A stretch of 35,516 nt of DNA. It comes from Candidatus Poseidoniia archaeon (GTDB taxonomy: Archaea; Thermoplasmatota; Poseidoniia; MGIII; CG-Epi1). The translations under genes and the position numbers were made by a program. Numbering within the stretch: position 1 is the first letter of the stretch; every line of letters starts with the position of its first letter. The notes beneath the pieces were generated by a model. It had not been told where the DNA came from and searched no databases. It saw only the letters and a program-made list of their open reading frames with translations. The stretch is taken from NCBI GenBank assembly GCA_030748895.1, contig JASMLC010000005.1, positions 1 through 35,516 of the forward strand, in the 5' to 3' direction. This document shows, one piece after another, positions 1 to 28,393 of the stretch.

Positions 1-630
1 CCCTCACCTTCCGAAAAGGGAACGACCGTAGTCTTCAGCGGCTCTGGCTCTGATAGTGACGGTACGGTTGTGGCCTACCATTGGGAATCATCGTTTGATG
101 GGGATTTAAGCACGGAAGCGAACTTCAGCAGCAACAATTTGTCTCTTGGACACCACACAATCACCTTCCGGGTGCAGGACAATGATGGGGATTGGAGCAG
201 TGATTCTGAATGGGGGCTGTGGATTTACGCAGTGCCGGTAGCAATTGCCGGAGATGATGTATCGACCACGCCCACCGTCCCAGTCCAGTTCAACGGCCAG
301 GGGACCGACGAGGACGGCACCATAGCAAAGTACGAGTGGGACTTCGATGGCAACGGGGTTTACGACTGGTCATCAACCGAGAACGGCCGGGAACTCAACA
401 TCTACAACAACGTGGGCGTTTACACAGCGATGCTGCGGGTCACCGACAACGACGGCTTCACCGATACAGATACGGTAGTCATCACGGTGACGGAGAAGAT
501 AATTCAGATTGATGACGAAGGCAATGTTACTGTCACGGACGCCGGAGAGGATGAGGAAGGCATCCCCGCGCCGTCGCGGGCCGCCTCCGTCGCCGCCATG
601 GCCGTCATCGCGCTGCGCCGCCGGCGCTGA
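1..630 (+). CDS. PKD-domain secreted surface protein, C-terminal part (5' truncated)
   Basis: The frame is open from the first base of the window, so the true start lies upstream. Two PKD-like beta-sandwich units are visible: a first ending near DNDGDWSSDSEW, and a second with the typical TDEDGTIAKYEWDFDGNG core and a closing VTDNDGFTDTDTVVITV strand. PKD domains are extracellular adhesion or spacer modules. After an acidic linker the protein ends with GIPAPS, a short Ala/Val-rich hydrophobic stretch and four arginines, which is the three-part layout of PEP-CTERM/PGF-CTERM sorting tails. The hydrophobic part is only about 12 residues, shorter than in typical tails. It probably marks a sortase-processed, cell-surface protein. 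PKD assignment is firm; the sorting function is inferred. Near-identical DNA for the tail recurs on the other strand at 7516-7569. Confidence 0.85.
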   Translation, partial: PSPSEKGTTVVFSGSGSDSDGTVVAYHWESSFDGDLSTEANFSSNNLSLGHHTITFRVQDNDGDWSSDSEWGLWIYAVPVAIAGDDVSTTPTVPVQFNGQGTDEDGTIAKYEWDFDGNGVYDWSSTENGRELNIYNNVGVYTAMLRVTDNDGFTDTDTVVITVTEKIIQIDDEGNVTVTDAGEDEEGIPAPSRAASVAAMAVIALRRRR

Positions 631-15273: not shown

Positions 15274-15888
15274 TCAGCCGGCAACGACCCGTACTTCGTC
15301 GCGCTCCAGTTCGGCCCGCAGCTCCGTCGCGTCGGCAGCCGAGAGCCGGCAGCGCAACGCGAACACTTCGTACATGCCTTCGATACCGCACGCCTCGACC
15401 GCCACCGCACCGCCGCCCGCCGGTATGAGCGTGACGTTGACCAGCCCGTCGAGCGGGATGCCGCCGGTAGGTGCCCGCCCCGCGAACTGGTCGAGCAGCT
15501 CGCGCGCAGTCGGCGTCCCGCCGTCGAGCACCAGTACGTCGCCGTAGAGCATCAGCCAGCGCCCGCGATGGCCGACCACCGGCCACGCGCGCGAAGCCGG
15601 CAGCGGCGGCCGCTCCGCCTGCGGCACCCCCGCCCAGCGGCCGGTCTCCTCGCTCCAGTCGTCAGCCTCGGCGGCCGCAACGCCGGCAGCGCCCGCCGCA
15701 CCGCCCTCCCCCGGCGCGCTGCCGGGCGGAATCGCCAGCAGCGCGACCGCGGGCGCCCAGCGGTTGCCGTCCCAGAAGTGCGCCGCGTGCGACAGCGCGC
15801 CGCTCTCCAGGTCGGCGCGCAGCCGCGACACCGGCATCGGCCCGAAGGTCGCGTCGCCGACCCGCACGGGGTATTCGAGCTCGCTCAC
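15274..15888 (-). CDS. GYF_2-like domain protein of unknown function
   Basis: 204 residues. The first about 50 residues (VRVGDATFGPMPVSRLRADLESGALSHAAHFWDGNRWAPA, broken here by the Gly-Pro core) follow the GYF_2 pattern of GP, a helix, SG-L, then W-x-G-x-x-W, a small domain used for protein contacts. A Gly/Ala-rich linker follows, then a beta-rich C-terminal domain with VVGHRGRWLMLYGDVLVLDGG, which I cannot place. It starts with GTG in a GTGA overlap with the pentapeptide-repeat gene, so the two proteins are probably made together and may interact. No signal peptide. Confidence 0.65.
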   Translation of the reverse strand: MSELEYPVRVGDATFGPMPVSRLRADLESGALSHAAHFWDGNRWAPAVALLAIPPGSAPGEGGAAGAAGVAAAEADDWSEETGRWAGVPQAERPPLPASRAWPVVGHRGRWLMLYGDVLVLDGGTPTARELLDQFAGRAPTGGIPLDGLVNVTLIPAGGGAVAVEACGIEGMYEVFALRCRLSAADATELRAELERDEVRVVAG

Positions 15889-17216
15889 GCCGGTGCTGGT
15901 GGGTTACTATCGTAGCGGTCGCCGTCGGTCCAGATGGTCTGGTGCCAGTATGTGTCGTCGAAGTTAGTGTTAGTAACAGTCGCTGACGTGAAGTCGGCGA
16001 ATTTCAGGTCCGCACCGTACAGGTCGGCACCCGTCAGGTTTGCATGCATTAGGTGGGCACCCGTCAGGTCCGCATAAGACAGGTCGGCATCCGTCAGGTC
16101 CGCACTGGACAGGCTGGCATCCGTCAGGTCCGCAGACCCCAGGTCGGCATCCGTCAGGTCCGCACTGTACAGGTTGGCATCCGTCAGGTCCGCCCACCAC
16201 AGGTTGGCATCCGTCAGGTCCGCAGACACCAGGTAGGCATCCGTCAGGTCCGCACTGTACAGGTTGGCATCCGTCAGGTCCGCATACACCAGGTTGGCAT
16301 CCGTCAGGTCCGCATACCACAGGTGGGCATCCGTCAGGTCCGCATCCTCCAGGTTGGCACCCGTCAGGTCCGCAAATCGCAGGTCGGCACCCGTCAGGTC
16401 CGCATCGTACAGGTCGGCATCCGTCAGGTCCGCAGACCCCAGGTAGGCACCCGTCAGGTCCGCATACCGCAGGTCGGCATCCGTCAGGTCCGCATACTGC
16501 AGGTAGGCGTTGGAGAAGTTCGTGGAACTATTACCCTCGATGTTCATCAGCAGGCTCTCGTTCAGTCTCGCCCCGGAAAGGTTAGCACCCTCCAGATTGG
16601 CGCTGCGCAGGACGATACCGGTGAGGTCCATCCCGCTCAGGTCCGCGCCGCTCAGGTCTGCGTCGGCGCAGTTGCCGAACGGCACCAGCTGGCAACTCGT
16701 CGCGTTCTCGAGTTCCGCTTCGAGCGCGGCGATGTCGGCGGCGTGCTGGTCGAGTATCTGGTTGATATTCGTGACCGCAATCTCGAGTGTCGTAACTGCT
16801 GCCTCAGCGGCGGCGAGCCGGAGCTCGACCGCAGCGAGGTTGGCGGCGACCGCGCTGATGTTCGCCTCGACCGCCTCCATCAGCAGCAGGTCGGCATCGA
16901 GGATGTCGATGATGGCATCGATTTCAGCCTGCAATTCGGCGATTTGCGTGTCGGTGGTGTTGTCAGCGCTCTCGTTCTCGAGCGCATCGACGCGCGCGTC
17001 GAGCGCTTCGATGAGCGCCAAGTCGGCGTCGAGGATGTCGGAGATTGCCCCGAGTTCGGCGTTCAGCGTGGCGATGTCGGCGTCGTTGCTCGCGACGGTC
17101 GACTCGACGTTATTGATGTCGGATTGCAGCGAGCTGCTGAAGAACACGTTCAGCAGCAGCACGACTGCCAGTCCTCCGGCGACGAGCGCCGTCTGGGTGG
17201 GATTGCCTGCGTCCAT
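15885..17216 (-). CDS. membrane-anchored coiled-coil pentapeptide-repeat protein
   Basis: 443 residues. One N-terminal membrane helix (TALVAGGLAVVLLLNVFF) is followed by a long coiled coil (about residues 30-170, with repeated ILDADL and EIDAI heptad stretches). After a short segment with two Cys (CQLVPFGNCA) there is a pentapeptide-repeat domain of the A(D/N)L-x-x class, about residues 180-420, which should form a right-handed quadrilateral beta-helix. In its central part the repeat unit is ten residues (for example SADLTDANLY). A short non-repeat cap ends the protein. It is probably exported and held at the membrane as a rod. A TATA-like GATATAG lies about 24 nt upstream. Confidence 0.9.
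   Translation of the reverse strand: MDAGNPTQTALVAGGLAVVLLLNVFFSSSLQSDINNVESTVASNDADIATLNAELGAISDILDADLALIEALDARVDALENESADNTTDTQIAELQAEIDAIIDILDADLLLMEAVEANISAVAANLAAVELRLAAAEAAVTTLEIAVTNINQILDQHAADIAALEAELENATSCQLVPFGNCADADLSGADLSGMDLTGIVLRSANLEGANLSGARLNESLLMNIEGNSSTNFSNAYLQYADLTDADLRYADLTGAYLGSADLTDADLYDADLTGADLRFADLTGANLEDADLTDAHLWYADLTDANLVYADLTDANLYSADLTDAYLVSADLTDANLWWADLTDANLYSADLTDADLGSADLTDASLSSADLTDADLSYADLTGAHLMHANLTGADLYGADLKFADFTSATVTNTNFDDTYWHQTIWTDGDRYDSNPPAPA
16021..16500. repeat. sixteen tandem 30-bp units coding pentapeptide repeats
   Basis: Units begin every 30 bases with AGGT, then GGCATCCGTCAGGTCCGCA with few changes, followed by six variable bases and C. The length is a multiple of three and the frame stays open, so they encode ten-residue units of the protein at 15885-17216. 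Identity at synonymous positions is high, which points to recent expansion by slippage or unequal exchange. Confidence 0.9.
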
Positions 17217-20486: not shown

Positions 20487-21329
20487 TTAAGTGTTGGTGC
20501 CCGCCGGCGGCTTGTCGAGCCGCTCCGGGCAGCCCCTGCGGCGCGAGCAGTTCTGGCACTTGCCAGGGCGGTTGTGGTTGCGGTGAACCTCACTCTGTCC
20601 CGCCAGCGCGTCGTTCATCTCTTCCAGCTTCTCGAGCACAATGGCCTTCAGCTTCGGCTCCCACTCGACCGTGTGCGGCTCGGTCTCGAGGCCATAGCGC
20701 AGCTGCCCGCCGGGCGGGGACTTGCCGTACATTTCCTCGACCAGCAGGCAGTAGGCGCCCGCCTGCAGCACGTGGCTGAAGAAAGGCGCCCGCGGACGGC
20801 GGCCGGTCTTGACCTCGACCGGGATGCGCACGCCGTCCTCGTGCAGGATGTAGTCAGGTCTCCCCGCGAGGTTGTGTTTCTCCGACTTGAGGACCGGTGC
20901 TTTCGCAGTCATATCGTCCGGCGCCTCGATTTCGCCCTCGCCCAGCTTGTAATCGTCGCGCAGTTTGTCGACACGCTCGGTCGACTGCAGCAGCCGGTAG
21001 AGCAGGAACGATGCGCCCAACATGAAAAACAGGCTCACGATTAACATGATTTCGCCCTCGTTGGAGCCAATGCGCCACAGGATGAAGAGCGCCACCAGCA
21101 CCAGTATCCCGATGTAGAGTACGACCGCCAGCAGCGTGCTTGAGGTCTCGCGCGACTTGTGCTCCTCATGGAGCAGCGTCTTGAGCGAGTCGCCGATTTC
21201 CTGATGTTTCTCAAGGCCACTCGCGACTTCGCTGCCTTCGGCGTCGACGCCAGTGCGGCCCAGCCACCACGAGAGGGGGCAGTATCCATACCGCTCCATC
21301 TCGGAGGCCGAGATGACTTCCTTGCTCAT
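20487..21329 (-). CDS. Cas4/RecB-like nuclease with a two-helix membrane insertion
   Basis: 280 residues. Cas4-family features in order: Cys17 in ERYGYCPLSWW, a conserved-type His at 42, the nuclease core with GRPD (Asp159), VEVKTG (Glu172, Lys174), and the QxxxY motif (Gln189, Tyr193), then a C-terminal cluster with Cys258, 261 and 267 spaced C-x2-C-x5-C. Four cysteines in this layout hold a 4Fe-4S cluster in Cas4. Unusually, two hydrophobic helices (about residues 66-86 and 93-113) sit between the first Cys and the nuclease core, so the enzyme should be membrane-bound. No CRISPR array or other cas gene is in the window. Role unknown: DNA repair or defence at the membrane is possible. Confidence 0.8.
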   Translation of the reverse strand: MSKEVISASEMERYGYCPLSWWLGRTGVDAEGSEVASGLEKHQEIGDSLKTLLHEEHKSRETSSTLLAVVLYIGILVLVALFILWRIGSNEGEIMLIVSLFFMLGASFLLYRLLQSTERVDKLRDDYKLGEGEIEAPDDMTAKAPVLKSEKHNLAGRPDYILHEDGVRIPVEVKTGRRPRAPFFSHVLQAGAYCLLVEEMYGKSPPGGQLRYGLETEPHTVEWEPKLKAIVLEKLEEMNDALAGQSEVHRNHNRPGKCQNCSRRRGCPERLDKPPAGTNT

Positions 21330-21391: not shown

Positions 21392-21793
21392 TCAGACCTG
21401 ACGGTAAGTTTCGCTCCAGGCGAGGTTACCGTATTCGGAGATTTCGTACGCCCAGCGCAGCTCGTGCGGACCGTTCCCGTCACTGAAGCGGATAGTCAGC
21501 AGCAGCTGGTAGTCGAAGGCTGATGGTTCGTGGTAAACCAGCGACGGGAGCTTGACCGACTGGTGCGCCGCCAGTGTGCCGGGGCGCCACGATTGCTGCT
21601 CGACGAGCAGGGTGTCGTTCCAGACCGACATCTCAATCTCCAGCCCCGAGAAGGCGAGGGTCCCTTCGTTGGTAACGCGACACTGGATAAAATTGCCCGA
21701 GTAGGAGTGGTGGTAGACCGTTTCGACCCGCAACTCAGTGCGCGGGATGGCGTACGCCCAGCCGGCCCAGAGCAGCAGCAGGATGGCGCCCAC
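21392..21793 (-). CDS. small membrane-anchored beta-domain protein, partner of the giant protein
   Basis: 133 residues from GTG 21793. An N-terminal hydrophobic helix (AILLLLWAGWAYA) is followed by a beta-rich extracellular domain (VTNEGTLAFSGLEIEMSVWND and LRWAYEISEYG). I do not recognise the family; the fold looks like an FxLYD/CARDB-type beta-sandwich. The frame stays open upstream without ATG, GTG or TTG before the end of the giant gene. A CTG at 21835, overlapping the giant gene's stop as CTGA, would add 14 residues (LNREQQRLLLRISA) and give a better basic N-terminus. I keep the GTG but consider the CTG start likely. It follows the giant gene and is probably co-transcribed. Confidence 0.65.
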   Translation of the reverse strand: MGAILLLLWAGWAYAIPRTELRVETVYHHSYSGNFIQCRVTNEGTLAFSGLEIEMSVWNDTLLVEQQSWRPGTLAAHQSVKLPSLVYHEPSAFDYQLLLTIRFSDGNGPHELRWAYEISEYGNLAWSETYRQV

Positions 21794-21831
21794 CGCGCTG
21801 ATGCGCAGCAGCAGTCGCTGCTGTTCGCGAT

Positions 21832-24800
21832 TCAGAGGCTCGCCCCCAGTGATGCGAAGAAGCTGGTGCCGGGCTCGGGCAGGATGTAGTGCCGCTCGCC
21901 TGCGCCGAGCTCGGTGTCGAGGCCGCCGCGCTGATACTCGAGCCAGCCCGGAATGAGCGGCAGCCCACCCACCTCGCGCAGCCGTATGTCGAGCAGCATC
22001 GCGGCGGTGTCGAGCGTCAGCGGCCCCAGCCGCAATTCGCCTGCAATCGCAATGCCCAGCTCGCCACCACGCGCCTCGCTCAGCTCGAAGACCGGGTAGA
22101 CACCGAACAGCTCGTGCGGCGTGATACGTACGTGCTCGACCCCCACGGCGTGGAGTTCGAGGTAGTGCAGTGTAAACTGCGGCGTCGCCGGCGAATTGGT
22201 GCTGCGCAGGAACGCCTCGCCAATACCGTTCGGCGCGTCAATTACGTACGCGTAGCCGTCGATGTAGAGCCGGGTGTCATTGCCCAGGTCGGTCGCATCC
22301 AGCCAGGTGCCGCTGTGGCCGCCGGTATAGCCCGGGTCGAGCTGTAGCACCACGTCCATCCCCGGCTCGGAGACCTGCACAACGACGTTGGGGAAGCCCT
22401 GGAACATGAACGGCAGGTCCATGTCGAAATCGTAGTTGGGTTCTATCTGCATGTCGAAGAAAGCAGGGACGTCGTGCACCAGCGCGGTCGCCGTGCGCCA
22501 GCCACCGTAGCGGTCGCTGGTCGAACGCGCCATCAGCAGCTCCTGCCCGGAGGACGAATGGAAGTTGAAGCGCACCTCGCGTCCCACCAGCACCTTCGCC
22601 CGCAATTCGTGCGGCACCTCGGAGAGGATGATTTCGTTGATGGAGCGGCCGGTCTGGTTATGCGAACGGAAGTAGGCGCGTCCCAGCCCCTTCGAGGCCG
22701 AGATGTCGAAGACCGAATCGCTGTCGATGCCGGCGGCCGAGTCCTTGCCGAAGCTGAAGGTCCCGACCAGATCACTCCCGGACGGGATGTCGTCGAGGAA
22801 CAGGCGCAGCCCGGTGCCGGCGGTCCCGCGGTCAATATCAAGCCAGACCCAGTCGCGCTCGGGCGACCAGCCCTGCAAGTCGAGGCTGATTACGTCGGGC
22901 TCGCCGGTCGCCAGCTGTAGCGATGCCGCCTGCGGCAGGCCGGTCAGGTGGAAGCGCAGCGAAACGTTGTCGCCCGCTTGCCGCAACACCGCGCCGTGGG
23001 TCCAGTACGCCGGTTCCGGGACGCTGCCGACGTCGGCCGCCAGCGTCGCGCGTGGAATCGCTACCAGCGACGAGAATTCGAGCCCGACGGTGTCGCCCAG
23101 CGTGGCGCCCAGCGACGCCGACTCCGGGAGCTCCGGCAACGCGATTTCGACGTCCATCTCGCGCACCGCGTCGGTCACGCGGCCGTAGACCGTGCCGAGC
23201 GGCTGGTCGGTAGTAATCGTCAGGTTGGCGCTGACCGGGTCGCCCCCGACGTCGGTTTCCACCAGCAGTAGCGCGGTCGCATCCAGGTTGGCGGGGAGGT
23301 CGCCCAGCCGCAGGTCGAGCGACTTGTTGTCGACACCGGAAACTTGCGCCACCAGCTCCTCCATATCACCCCCGGCATTGAAATCGGTCGCTGCGAGCCC
23401 CAGCGAAGTCCCGTCGGGCCGGTCGCGGTACTCGATTGAGAGCTGCGGCGAGATGCCGCGCAAATACGCCTTGACGCTCATATCGCCCTCTCCGGAGCGT
23501 ACCAGCGAGAGCCCGTTGACCCATTCGCTCTCGAGCCGCGCCGTATCGCCCAGCTCGGCCGCAAAGACGACGTGGTCCACTGCCTCGCTGGCACTCAGGT
23601 TGAGGACCATACGGTCGGCCTTGATATCCAGCTCCAGCGAGAGGTCGCGCGGCAGTTGCGGCAGCAGGATTTCGAGCGAGTAAGGACGCTCACCGTCCTC
23701 CTCGACGCGTATATAAATGGGGCCGACCGGCTGGGTGCTCTCGAAATCGATTGAGCCGGCGAGGGTGAAGTTCTCGACAGTGGCGTTGATGGTCAGGTTG
23801 GCATCAATCGCCAGGTCGAGTGATTGCGGTATGTCGGCGATGTAGGCGGTGAACTTCGGGCCGAAAATGCCGTGCTCGCGGAAGAAGAGGTAGTCGGCGG
23901 TCGCCTCGTGGTTATACTGCTTCAGGTCGAGCAGCAGCCGCAGGTCGTCGCCGCGCGAAAGGTAGTCGGCGTCGACCAGTCGCGGCAGCCCCGGCAACAG
24001 CAGGCGCGCCGCGAGAACCTCTTCGTCACCCACATCCAGCTGGTCTGACCAGAGCCCCTGCACCCAGCGCGGTGGCTCCTCCAGCAGCGAGACATTGCCC
24101 TTGTCAATCCAGGCCGTAATCGCCACTTCCTCCTCGACCGAATAGATGAAGCGTGCGACAGTCTCGAACGACTCGACGTTGGAAATCAGGTTCAGAGACA
24201 GGTCGGAGACCAGTTGCACCATCGCCTCCCCCAAATCGGATAGCGCCTCAATCAGCCGCGCCACGTCGCCCAGTGAACTTACATTGCCGACACCGGCCGG
24301 CAGGTCATCTGCATCGAGCAGTGGCACCCGCACGGTCAGGTTGACCGGCAGCGGGTCGACCAGCACGTAGGCGTTGAGCCCGGCAGTGGGTGACCCGTAG
24401 TCGGTCAGGTCGACCGCCCCCACCTTGAACTGCACCGGCTGCCGGTGCTGAATCTGGAAGTCGGCCATGTCGCCGGCGCTATCGAGTCGCAGCGACTGGA
24501 GCCAGTTGAGTTGTCCCGCCAGCGACGCCGACTCGTCGGGGGCGCCGACGCGGTCGCGGTAGAGCAGCACCCAATTACCGTCGAAGACCGACTCGTCCCA
24601 TATCTGCGCGGTCGCGACGCCGTCCGCAGTCTGGTTGGTGATGGCGAAGCTGAAGTTGAACCAGCTGTCGGTCAGCAGCCGCATGTCGCTGCCGTCAACC
24701 GCGATTTCGGCGTCGCCCGGCAGGTGCTCGAGCGCGAAGCGGGTATAGATGTCGTCCGCCAAGCTGGTGAAGGTGATGGACTCCATCACTCGGTCGCCGT

Positions 24801-27165
24801 GCGGGTCTCCCACCGGTCCACCGCTGTACTGCACCGAGCCGCCCTGCATCTCCAGCGCAATCTCGGTCGGGATGTCGCTGAAGGTGACGTTGGCCCAGTG
24901 GGTCGTCGCGCCCGCCGCGTCAACCCCTTCGAAGTAGACTCGCAACGGATGGTCGCGGCCCGGCTGCACCGAGAGCTCGACCGTGCGGTCGCTCCCCTCC
25001 GAGGAATAGTAGGCGTCGCCGACTCCCGTCAGGCGGCCGCTGAAGCTGTAATCCAGGTTTTCGCCCGAAACGGCGGCGCGGCCCGGTGCGGGCGAGTTGG
25101 CCGCCAGCCATGCGGTCTCGTTGTAAATCGCGAAGTAGTCGTCGCCTGCCGGCAGCGTCAGCCAGGCGTGGCTGGTAATCCAGAACTCGAGCTTCCCGAG
25201 CCAGGCCTTCTCGCCGGAGCGGGTACGCATCGTGAGCCGTACCTCGCCGGCGCCCTCACCCACAGTGACGCCGAGTACTGCCTGCGGGATGGAGCGCAGG
25301 ATGCGACCGATGGTCACCAGCTTGCTAGCCAACGCGAACATCATGTTGTTCAGGAAGTCTCCCACCAAGTTACCAAGGTCCTGTACCGGTGGCAGGGAGT
25401 CGTCGTCGAAGAGCGTGAATGACCCTTCGAGCAGGACATGCTGCGGCAGGTCCTGCATCACCACGCCGGTGAAGATGCGGTAGTCATGCTCGCCCCACGC
25501 CGCTCCCACCTCAGTGGAGGAAAGATACTCATAGTCGCCGTAAACGAGTGACTTGAGACGCTGCGTAGAGCTGAACTCGACCACGGTGCGGTTCTGCTCA
25601 TCGGTCGATTCGTTACGCACCTCCAGCCAGAGCGAGGTGCCGGGACGGTCGCTGAGGCAGGCGAACGGTTCCCCCGGAAGCAAGCCACGGTCGCAGCTCG
25701 GAATTCCCTCCAGTTCGGCGACTATATGCGACAGAAACGGGTCGCTCCCATCGCGCGGGGCGACGTTGTACTCGTAATAGTGGAAGTCCAGATTGAAACT
25801 GGCGTCCTGCTCAAGCGGGTCGTCGCGATCGACAAGTCTGGCATACAACTCGAGTGCATCGCGATCGACGCCATCCTCGTCATCGGAGATAATGCGCAGT
25901 TCCAGCTCGGCCGGAATCTTGCCACGTGGATTGGAGATGTTGAGCTTGACGAAAGACATCTCCTCTATCGCTGGCAAGGGTTCTTCCGGGGTACCGCCGC
26001 GTGACCAGTTGTACTTGATGTAGCCAGGGGTAATCGTCAGCCCCTCGACACCATTATCGGACGAGTTGGACTGGTCGGCGTTGATGTGGTAGCGCAGGTT
26101 ATAGGGTGCGTTCAGGCTGGTCAGGTCACCAGGGTTGATTCCACTCGCATTAAGATAAATTGCAAAATCATCGGTTGTACCCTCCCAGTCATAGGTGTCA
26201 GGTACGTCCTGGAACTGCGTATCCACGGTCCAGATGTAGGTCAGGTCCTCGCCCTGATCGCCGGTATAGGTTGCGCCGCGAATCACCGCTATTTCCAGTA
26301 GCTGGTCCAGTTCCACGCCAGGCAACTCTTCAAACTCGAATGAAAGGCCGCCTTCGGCCCCCACCTGAACATCGCCGTCGAAGGGGTTGGCATCCGACTG
26401 CTCTATCAGGTTCCCGATAATCGGCACCAACCGGCAGCGGACGTCGTCGTTGCCGTCACCGGTAACATCAATGTTGACCCAGGAGATGTCGCTTTCGTCA
26501 AGGGAGCTGATGAGTAATATGAAAATGTCCACGAAAGGGTTCCCGGGGGGGAGGGTAGCGTTAACCCAGGCTGTCAAGAGCGAGGTCGAGGAGCCAAAGA
26601 GTGTGGTAATCAGGTCCTTCTCCTCGATGCCCTCCTCTTCTACGGAGATATTACCATCCCCGTTAGCGTCATAGGCCCAGTAGATCAGGTATGTCTGGAG
26701 GAACAGCGACGCGGCCGTGCCAAGCATGGTATCCTGCCACATCTCCTCGTTTTCAATCATTTCCCCCATAATGCGAGCTTGTTGCGGCTGCGGGTCGTCC
26801 ACCACCACCGGCATGAAGCCGCGGTCGCCGTATTCCCAGCTCATCTCGGCCATGTCGACCGACGCATTCACCTCCTCGGTCGCGTTGAGTTCTGCCAGCG
26901 TCTGCCGCTGGTCCTCGAGCAGCGAAAAATTGGCAATCCTGCCGTCGTGCAGCTGCCGCAGCAGTGCCAGCTCCTCGCCAACCAGACTCGCCTGTTCCTG
27001 CCGATGCAGTTCCAGCGACCCGAAGAGTTCCTCCATCACCGCGGCGGAGCCGTAGTCGCTCCCGTCGCCACCGCCCGGCGAATGGGTTGTCGCGCCCGCG
27101 AGGAGCGGCTGCAGGATTATCAGCAGGGCGATTCCCAGCACCAGCACTCGACGACGGGGGGTCAT
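21832..27165 (-). CDS. giant secreted surface protein with Ca-binding loops and beta repeats
   Basis: 1777 residues. A signal peptide is clear (RRR then VLVLGIALLIILQPLLAGA). Residues 166-177 (DANGDGNISVEE) form an EF-hand-like loop, and 232-242 (DVTGDGNDDV) a second Asp-rich loop. Many N-x-S/T sequons suggest N-glycosylation. The C-terminal third contains four diverged copies of a beta module with a G-x-x-Y/F-x-R core followed by a strand ending in LPxLP, at about 23,720, 23,190, 22,670 and 22,210, so a spacing near 160-180 residues. There is no C-terminal membrane helix or sorting tail; the adjacent small protein could anchor it. A TATA-like CTATAAAT lies about 30 nt upstream. I know no characterised homologue; it may be a cell-wall or fibre protein. 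Confidence 0.85.
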   Translation of the reverse strand: MTPRRRVLVLGIALLIILQPLLAGATTHSPGGGDGSDYGSAAVMEELFGSLELHRQEQASLVGEELALLRQLHDGRIANFSLLEDQRQTLAELNATEEVNASVDMAEMSWEYGDRGFMPVVVDDPQPQQARIMGEMIENEEMWQDTMLGTAASLFLQTYLIYWAYDANGDGNISVEEEGIEEKDLITTLFGSSTSLLTAWVNATLPPGNPFVDIFILLISSLDESDISWVNIDVTGDGNDDVRCRLVPIIGNLIEQSDANPFDGDVQVGAEGGLSFEFEELPGVELDQLLEIAVIRGATYTGDQGEDLTYIWTVDTQFQDVPDTYDWEGTTDDFAIYLNASGINPGDLTSLNAPYNLRYHINADQSNSSDNGVEGLTITPGYIKYNWSRGGTPEEPLPAIEEMSFVKLNISNPRGKIPAELELRIISDDEDGVDRDALELYARLVDRDDPLEQDASFNLDFHYYEYNVAPRDGSDPFLSHIVAELEGIPSCDRGLLPGEPFACLSDRPGTSLWLEVRNESTDEQNRTVVEFSSTQRLKSLVYGDYEYLSSTEVGAAWGEHDYRIFTGVVMQDLPQHVLLEGSFTLFDDDSLPPVQDLGNLVGDFLNNMMFALASKLVTIGRILRSIPQAVLGVTVGEGAGEVRLTMRTRSGEKAWLGKLEFWITSHAWLTLPAGDDYFAIYNETAWLAANSPAPGRAAVSGENLDYSFSGRLTGVGDAYYSSEGSDRTVELSVQPGRDHPLRVYFEGVDAAGATTHWANVTFSDIPTEIALEMQGGSVQYSGGPVGDPHGDRVMESITFTSLADDIYTRFALEHLPGDAEIAVDGSDMRLLTDSWFNFSFAITNQTADGVATAQIWDESVFDGNWVLLYRDRVGAPDESASLAGQLNWLQSLRLDSAGDMADFQIQHRQPVQFKVGAVDLTDYGSPTAGLNAYVLVDPLPVNLTVRVPLLDADDLPAGVGNVSSLGDVARLIEALSDLGEAMVQLVSDLSLNLISNVESFETVARFIYSVEEEVAITAWIDKGNVSLLEEPPRWVQGLWSDQLDVGDEEVLAARLLLPGLPRLVDADYLSRGDDLRLLLDLKQYNHEATADYLFFREHGIFGPKFTAYIADIPQSLDLAIDANLTINATVENFTLAGSIDFESTQPVGPIYIRVEEDGERPYSLEILLPQLPRDLSLELDIKADRMVLNLSASEAVDHVVFAAELGDTARLESEWVNGLSLVRSGEGDMSVKAYLRGISPQLSIEYRDRPDGTSLGLAATDFNAGGDMEELVAQVSGVDNKSLDLRLGDLPANLDATALLLVETDVGGDPVSANLTITTDQPLGTVYGRVTDAVREMDVEIALPELPESASLGATLGDTVGLEFSSLVAIPRATLAADVGSVPEPAYWTHGAVLRQAGDNVSLRFHLTGLPQAASLQLATGEPDVISLDLQGWSPERDWVWLDIDRGTAGTGLRLFLDDIPSGSDLVGTFSFGKDSAAGIDSDSVFDISASKGLGRAYFRSHNQTGRSINEIILSEVPHELRAKVLVGREVRFNFHSSSGQELLMARSTSDRYGGWRTATALVHDVPAFFDMQIEPNYDFDMDLPFMFQGFPNVVVQVSEPGMDVVLQLDPGYTGGHSGTWLDATDLGNDTRLYIDGYAYVIDAPNGIGEAFLRSTNSPATPQFTLHYLELHAVGVEHVRITPHELFGVYPVFELSEARGGELGIAIAGELRLGPLTLDTAAMLLDIRLREVGGLPLIPGWLEYQRGGLDTELGAGERHYILPEPGTSFFASLGASL

Positions 27166-27190
27166 GACGCTACTTGGAGAAACCTGCGGT

Positions 27191-27227
27191 ATTTATAGGT
27201 GGCCGGAAAGCCTGAGCTTTAAATAAA
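27191..27227. promoter_or_regulatory. divergent promoters of the giant protein gene and ftsZ
   Basis: CTATAAAT on the minus strand (27191-27198) lies about 30 nt before the giant-protein ATG. TTTAAATA on the plus strand (about 27218-27226) is centred about 26 nt before the ftsZ ATG. A GGAGG at 27228-27232 is 15 nt or more from the ftsZ ATG; it would only be in the message if transcription began at the more distant box. Confidence 0.55.
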
Positions 27228-27247
27228 GGAGGAAAGTCCAGCCGAAT

Positions 27248-28393
27248 ATGCCTGAGGATGAAAGCCCGGCAGAGGTGCCGGCGGAAGAGGAACCGCAGGA
27301 GCCCGCAACCGAGGTGAAACAGGAGCGGCTTGAGGCGGACAATGGCTTCCGTGGTGAAGCTAACGAGCGCGAGCTGCAGGAGCTGGTCGCGAACCTCAGC
27401 ACCAATATCCTGATTATCGGCGCCGGCGGCGCTGGCAACAACACCCTCGAGCGGCTCTACCGTGAAGGAATTGACGGTGTCGAGATGCTGGCGCTGAACA
27501 CCGACGCGCAGCACTTGCTCGCGGCGCGGGTACCTCACCGCATGCTCATCGGCAAGCAGCTCACGAAGGGGCTCGGCGCTGGCGCCGAGCCCCGCCTCGG
27601 CGAGGGGGCCGCAGAGGAAGCACGGGATGACCTGCTCAACGCCTGCCACGGAGCGGACATCGTATTCCTGACTGGCGGGCTCGGCGGCGGCACCGGTACC
27701 GGCGCGCTGCCGGTAATGGCGCGATTTGCCAAGGAAAAGGAGGCGCTCACCATCGCAATCGTCACGCTGCCGTTCAGTAACGAAGGAGCCCGGCGCGCCA
27801 AGAATGCGAAACAGGGGCTGGAGCGGCTGCGCAAGGTGGCCGACACAGTTATCGTGATTCCCAACGACAAACTGCTGCAGGAGGAAATCGCGCAGCTACC
27901 GCTCAACGAAGCGTTCCGCAAGGCCGACGCCATCCTCGGTGGGGCGATTCGCTGCATGTCTGAAATCACCACCCGCAGTGGACTGGTCAACATCGACTTC
28001 GCCGACCTGCGTTCAATCATGGGTGAGGGTGGGGTAGCGATGATTGGCACCGGCGAGGCGCAGGGTGCGGACCGTGCGGCCGAGGCGGTGCAGTATGCTT
28101 TCTCGTCGCCACTGCTGGAGGTCGATATCAGCCAGGCTTCGGGCGCGCTCATCAACGTCACCGGCGGTGACGACATGACTCTGCAGGAAGCGCACGAAGT
28201 GGTGCGCGAAGTGAATGCCAAGATTAATAAGGAGGCCCGAATCATCTGGGGAGCTTCCATCGATTCTTCTCTCGAGCATTCCATTCGTGTGATGCTTGTA
28301 GTAACTGGTGTGAAATCATCCCAGATACTTGGTCCTCCAGAAGGAGTCGAAGATGAACTGGTGGCGCGCTACGGGATAGACTTCGTGCAATGA
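27248..28393 (+). CDS. ftsZ: cell-division tubulin-like GTPase FtsZ
   Basis: 381 residues. Residues 1-50 are an acidic, probably disordered extension. The GTPase domain has [17 protein letters not shown], the tubulin signature GGGTGTG (146-152, in [15 protein letters not shown]) and the T7 loop [11 protein letters not shown] needed for polymer-driven hydrolysis. It forms the division ring. Gene order with secE and spt5 downstream is that of euryarchaeal ftsZ1, so FtsZ1 is the likely paralogue. The end (ARYGIDFVQ) is short. Its TGA overlaps the secE ATG in an ATGA. Confidence 0.95.

Follow-up and report, generated by a model that had tools for sequence, protein, structure and literature searches.

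The window analysed here is a stretch of 35,516 nucleotides from the genome of a Candidatus Poseidoniia archaeon of the MGIII lineage (contig JASMLC010000005.1). Poseidoniia (MGII and MGIII) are uncultured and rank among the most abundant planktonic archaea. On the minus strand of the window lies a single-copy gene for a giant secreted protein of 1777 amino acids (aa; 21832..27165), followed by a gene for a small membrane protein, hereafter the partner (21392..21835). An earlier note on this DNA had described the giant as a secreted protein of 1777 residues. Full-length relatives and a family profile confirmed a single gene without internal stops, and since close relatives keep it unbroken at 82-93% identity it is not a chance open reading frame (ORF). 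The encoded protein is acidic (15.8% D+E, 6.0% K+R). The partner was recovered by a profile match (E=1.7e-47) and appears to start with a CTG codon at 21833-21835 (-), overlapping the TGA stop of the giant and giving a product of 147 aa. The start was placed there because the overlap reads CTGA in the window, CTGA or GTGA in the nearest relatives within the genus, and ATGA in most other MGIII genomes. Through these overlapping stop and start codons, the partner would be made from the same message as the giant.

To establish how widely the two genes occur together, a giant profile built from 22 members of the class was searched over 293 genomes of the phylum Thermoplasmatota. The giant was found in 111 of them. 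A strong partner match (E<1e-10) was present in 106 of the same genomes, every one of which also carries the giant; the association is highly significant in a Fisher test that ignores shared ancestry (p=1e-74). Weak partner-profile matches, with E between 1e-3 and 1e-7, fell for the most part in larger ORFs and looked generically Ig/CARDB-like (Ig, immunoglobulin); they were left uncounted. When outgroup members were included in the giant profile, it was detected in 156 of 390 genomes, made up of 132 of the 135 class genomes and 24 from about 13 other families. The partner lies directly downstream of the giant in the class loci examined. In 18 of 19 genomes from outside the class it occupies this position on the same strand, amid housekeeping genes that are otherwise unrelated (ABC ATPase, GHMP kinase, PAC2, M24 peptidase, TBP, PCMT, Pus10); G096 is the exception. 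Five giants lacked a strong partner: in three genomes (G029, G095 and G118) the giant runs off the end of its contig, and two (G069 and G078) are truly without one. The pair thus persists across the class and about 13 other families, and relatives lack the partner only where the giant is truncated or, as described below, looks self-anchored. The absence of a partner in relatives, which the earlier note had named as grounds for abandoning its proposal, is confined among the 111 giants of the first search to these five explained cases. We conclude that giant and partner very probably constitute a previously undescribed gene pair working as a functional unit.

Hydropathy identified a sole strongly hydrophobic 19-residue stretch in the giant, corresponding to a signal peptide at about residues 1-25 (MTPRRRVLVLGIALLIILQPLLAGA, 27091..27165 (-)). 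An RRR n-region is followed by about 15 hydrophobic residues and then LAGA; the position is conserved in the family and cleavage presumably follows. The giant would therefore be exported through this signal peptide and then released from it. Two loops of calcium-binding type lie in the N-terminal part. One is a canonical EF-hand-type loop at residues 166-177 (DANGDGNISVEE, 26635..26670 (-)), which matched Pfam EF-hand_5 below the cut-off (E=0.035). The other, a DxxGDGxxD loop reading DVTGDGND at residues 233-240 (26446..26469 (-)), is kept through the giant family as IDxDGDGxDDI, with D233 and D237 invariant or nearly so. Through these two loops the giant probably binds calcium.

N-glycosylation sequons are strongly enriched, by a factor of about 3.5. 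The giant carries 27, as against 7.4 +/- 2.6 in 500 shuffles, none of which reached that number. Among 666 greedily called ORFs of the same genome (about 0.83 Mb of sequence covered), the observed/expected ratio was 1.02 for cytosolic-like and 1.85 for secreted-like proteins, and 3.75 for the giant. The signal peptide, the loops and the sequons thus all stood as the earlier note had read them. Enrichment extends to other MGIII giants and most outgroup giants, and the genome encodes an STT3 oligosaccharyltransferase. MGII giants, however, have 9-13 sequons where 7-11 are expected, although MGII retains STT3. Heavy N-glycosylation as a family-wide trait was consequently rejected; because of this MGII pattern, glycosylation looks lineage-specific rather than family-defining, and the giant would be N-glycosylated in the MGIII lineage. 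The STT3/AglB of this genome (G000, C4:86086-93039 (+), equivalent to L119:6086-13039) is itself a 2317-aa fusion, in which an N-terminal polytopic STT3 is followed by a long CarboxypepD_reg-type chain, CARDB and a final transmembrane helix. Most Poseidoniia have STT3 frames of 2000-3300 aa, as do other Thermoplasmatota.

We modelled residues 861-1777 of the giant with AlphaFold2 from 15 aligned MGIII sequences. The model is a succession of about 55-60 antiparallel strands and becomes confident at about residue 1065 (predicted template-modelling score 0.63). Within it, residues 1064-1765 (21871..23976 (-)) form a continuous antiparallel region of about 50 strands, with block values of predicted local distance difference test (pLDDT) mostly between 60 and 91. 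Strand amphipathicity in this region was 3.31, compared with 1.83 +/- 0.19 in its own shuffles, and residues are 73% hydrophobic on one face of the sheet and 27% on the other. The N-terminal half is also predicted to be beta from about residue 240, at low confidence (pLDDT 51). Most of the giant would thus fold into one very long continuous antiparallel beta-sheet with a hydrophobic face.

The earlier note had described four diverged beta modules with a G-x-x-Y/F-x-R core. The motif does occur exactly four times, at 1148, 1324, 1495 and 1649, and three of the modules proved related by profile comparison: M1 (residues 1065-1255, GPIYIR, 23401..23973 (-)) to M2 (1256-1425, GTVYGR, 22891..23400 (-)) at E=7e-19, and M2 to M3 (1426-1590, GRAYFR, 22396..22890 (-)) at E=2e-7. 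The putative M4 (1591-1770, GEAFLR, 21856..22395 (-)) rests on its core motif and a borderline match to M3 (E=1e-3, probability 22%). By sequence, M1-M3 are homologous repeats, and M4 is borderline. MGIII giants are longer than MGII giants, and one stretch of the family profile is matched twice in them, so that they carry extra copies; this fits growth by module addition.

Such a sheet raises the main rival to a coat function, namely that the giant handles lipids: the amphipathic sheet would rest on membrane lipid or form a hydrophobic groove, so as to store, shield or transport lipids or other hydrophobic compounds in the manner of apolipoprotein B or bridge-like lipid transfer proteins, with the partner docking the giant at the membrane. 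In its favour are the run of about 55 consecutive strands with markedly unequal faces, the conserved hydrophobic C-terminal tail described below, and the variation in size, for which the related M1-M3 fit extension by duplication. A fold search with the C-terminal-half model also gave the middle region of apoB100 as its best PDB match (E=5e-4), followed by weak matches to LptD, ushers and TonB receptors, all long meander sheets. Global TM-scores of these matches to a partial-length model were nevertheless around 0.1, the highest of those listed being 0.16 when scaled by query length, and at that level they tell the type of structure predicted and not a relationship. The N-terminal-half model matched SprA and TonB receptors; as that model is of low confidence, these matches were set aside as evidence of identity. 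Moreover, amphipathicity is common to any buried beta-sheet, no Pfam AsmA, TamB, VPS13 or vitellogenin match was found in the 22 giant members, and dense sequons are odd for a lipid-embedded protein. We also know of no second membrane in these cells, which weakens the proposal further. We regard lipid handling as unlikely. No archaeal S-layer (surface layer) protein was among the 50 fold matches listed for either model, and a search of a viral fold library returned nothing interpretable.

Sequence searches placed the giant in no known family. With single proteins and the 22-member alignment, Pfam, NCBIfam and PDB returned nothing for the giant beyond the sub-threshold EF-hand, and thus no S-layer protein. 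No catalytic-domain profile in Pfam or NCBIfam matched it, so that homology to a known enzyme family, which would have overturned the earlier note, was rejected. The broad giant alignment contains no conserved stretch of 7-10 residues, and the MGIII alignment served as scan query instead. For the partner, the same databases searched with a 28-member alignment gave only scattered matches in relatives, to CARDB (3 of 28 members, best 4.7e-6, none in the window partner) and to DUF2393 (four relatives, best 1.7e-4).

The partner itself has the architecture that the earlier note gave it. A single transmembrane helix at about residues 9-30 (21746..21811 (-)) is followed by an invariant P31 and by an Ig/CARDB-like beta domain at residues 31-147 (21395..21745 (-)), with invariant N56 and G58, predicted to be extracellular. 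The giant, which has no membrane helix of its own, would be held at the cell by this outward-facing domain, provided that the two bind physically. The deep-branching giants of G069 and G078 support this tethering role, since they have no partner and carry a membrane segment of their own: a charged N-terminal region of about 80-100 residues precedes a strong hydrophobic transmembrane helix, which by sequence is a signal anchor. A more distant giant relative in G079, also without a partner, ends in a short hydrophobic segment and a basic tail. These partner-less giants may be read as a small natural experiment favouring tethering, comprising two or three lineages and start codons assigned by inference. 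The giant relative of G069 (L147:4874-8938 (-), no partner gene) additionally bears a zinc-ribbon-like N-terminal motif ahead of its helix.

Alternatively, the partner could be a folding or export helper rather than a permanent tether, the giant being attached by an uncleaved N-terminal helix or by its C-terminal tail. That tail (HYILPEPGTSFFASLGASL, 21835..21891 (-)), a P-x-P motif with a short hydrophobic end, is conserved in the class and in most outgroup members. It persists in similar form in giants without a partner, as a helper would allow, and the long N-terminal regions ahead of the hydrophobic segment in several outgroup giants would permit a signal anchor. However, in class giants the n-region is short and the helix is followed by AxA-like sites, while the tail falls short of a typical transmembrane length and has no basic end like those of the other large surface proteins of the genome. 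We consider a helper improbable and tethering by the partner probable. The tail could serve membrane docking or capping of the sheet. The absence of an anchor or sorting tail, claimed by the earlier note, thus stands as far as a classical anchor goes, although the C-terminus is not featureless.

An archaeosortase tail on the giant was rejected, as it has no transmembrane segment and no basic end; the Pfam exosortase family was not found in the genome, with a model that also misses a Haloferax control genome. The giant is an exception in this respect. Many large surface proteins of the genome carry a hydrophobic stretch with a basic cluster at their C-terminus (C4:113023-120135 (-), C4:94355-101179 (+), C8:15704-19336 (-) and C3:68809-71739 (-)), as does a PKD protein truncated at the left edge of the window (1-630), and in several a proline-containing, archaeosortase-like motif precedes the tail. 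Other large secreted proteins carry a C-terminal zinc-ribbon-like motif (C3:106356-110510 (+), C10:13804-17475 (+), and L027:1133-5707 (-) in MGII). Following a transmembrane helix, such C-termini would be cytoplasmic, possibly a signalling or retention module.

Upstream of the giant, an 82-bp gap with TATA-like AT-rich stretches on both strands (27166..27247), a putative divergent promoter region, leads to ftsZ (27248-28393 (+)), the head of an ftsZ-secE-spt5 cluster. The divergence reported by the earlier note is thus real, and its suggestion of a link between envelope and division would make the pair an envelope factor coupled to FtsZ. The arrangement recurs in the MGIII loci examined, and in several loci of MGII family f3 about 5-6.5 kb separate ftsZ from the giant. 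By contrast, no ftsZ turned up in the vicinity of the pair in MGII family f2 loci or in loci outside the class, where the pair nonetheless persists. A general ftsZ link was accordingly rejected, and we judge a division factor highly improbable. The genome holds two FtsZ paralogues, the second at C2:129520-129996 (-).

The MGII pair has further predicted surface proteins as neighbours: a PKD/transmembrane/zinc-ribbon protein lies upstream, and downstream come an S8 subtilase, with a transmembrane helix and a zinc ribbon at its C-terminus, and next an Ig-repeat protein. The genomes of MGII archaea include genes for extracellular S8 peptidases (PMC6864105), and the giant might be an adhesin or a scaffold capturing substrate for extracellular protein breakdown by the neighbouring surface subtilase. 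The subtilase cluster was, however, not seen around the pair in the MGIII or outgroup loci examined, and a single-copy, nearly class-wide giant suggests a core role; an adhesin or scaffold of this kind is accordingly quite unlikely. Two further minus-strand genes of the window lie beyond the pair. A conserved MGIII neighbour at 20487-21329 encodes a PD-(D/E)XK/Cas4-like nuclease (Pfam PDDEXK_1 E=2.5e-12, Cas4 E=2e-9), membrane-bound by the looks of its hydrophobic segment, and 15885-17216 encodes a 443-aa pentapeptide-repeat protein with an N-terminal part predicted as coiled coil, whose counterpart in L023 has 1090 aa.

Taking these observations together, a two-component, membrane-tethered surface coat system is our best overall explanation, held with about even confidence. 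That the pair is a structural coat is, taken by itself, a slightly more tentative claim. The pair would then make up a major, or even the main, structural layer of the envelope, the giant playing the part of the lattice protein SlaA and the partner that of the anchor SlaB of Sulfolobus. It provides a concrete envelope candidate for Poseidoniia, possibly of unusual beta-sheet architecture, where the genome papers checked name no cell-wall component. A bolder version, which we think rather doubtful, has the cells of Poseidoniia and several other Thermoplasmatota wrapped by one continuous apolipoprotein-B-like sheet, extended by modules and pinned down by the small Ig-helix protein; if true, this would be an undescribed kind of archaeal envelope.

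Several points weigh against the coat. The genome papers checked mention no S-layer for Poseidoniales. Thermoplasmatales likewise have no paracrystalline S-layer, and carry an unordered glycoprotein layer instead (PMC12448462), because of which a non-crystalline coat is reasonable for the phylum. The sequons of MGII giants are unenriched, in G096 giant and partner lie on different contigs, and other outgroup giants, with uncertain start codons, partly share the long N-terminal region of the self-anchored ones. Codon adaptation does not tell abundance: the giant scores 0.62 (38th percentile), and the measure is uninformative here because ribosomal protein genes (0.66) are barely above the genome average (0.64). 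Finally, the continuous, strongly amphipathic sheet is unlike SlaA, and the partner has neither a coiled coil nor multiple Ig domains.

Among characterised systems, PGF/PEF-CTERM archaeosortase substrates recall the proline-glutamate-proline near the C-terminus of the giant, and differ from it in their transmembrane segment and terminal basic cluster. The bridge-like lipid transfer proteins AsmA, TamB and VPS13 are also long, membrane-tethered beta structures of variable family length, whereas the giant matches none of their Pfam models, has its anchor on a separate protein and belongs to cells in which a second membrane is not known. The beta-belt of apolipoprotein B-100 and lipovitellin shares the very long amphipathic antiparallel sheet and gave the best weak fold match; the TM-score of that match is about 0.1, and the giant is archaeal and has no sequence relation to apolipoprotein B-100. 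The closest functional analogue is Sulfolobus SlaA/SlaB, so that the statement of the earlier note that no characterised system resembles the pair is true by homology and not by function. SlaA has 1424 aa, is mostly beta and has 31 predicted sequons, and SlaB combines a transmembrane helix with Ig-like domains (PMC10903991). The giant is likewise large, secreted, mostly beta by prediction, sequon-rich and without its own transmembrane anchor, and its dedicated neighbouring gene encodes a small transmembrane protein with an Ig-like domain. In contrast, no sequence homology of the giant to any solved chain was found, and SlaB has a coiled-coil stalk, three Ig-like domains and a C-terminal transmembrane helix where the partner has one domain and an N-terminal helix. 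An S-layer of the SlaA/SlaB type is an ordered lattice of a very abundant protein. The pair is thus most likely analogous, not homologous, to Sulfolobus SlaA/SlaB.

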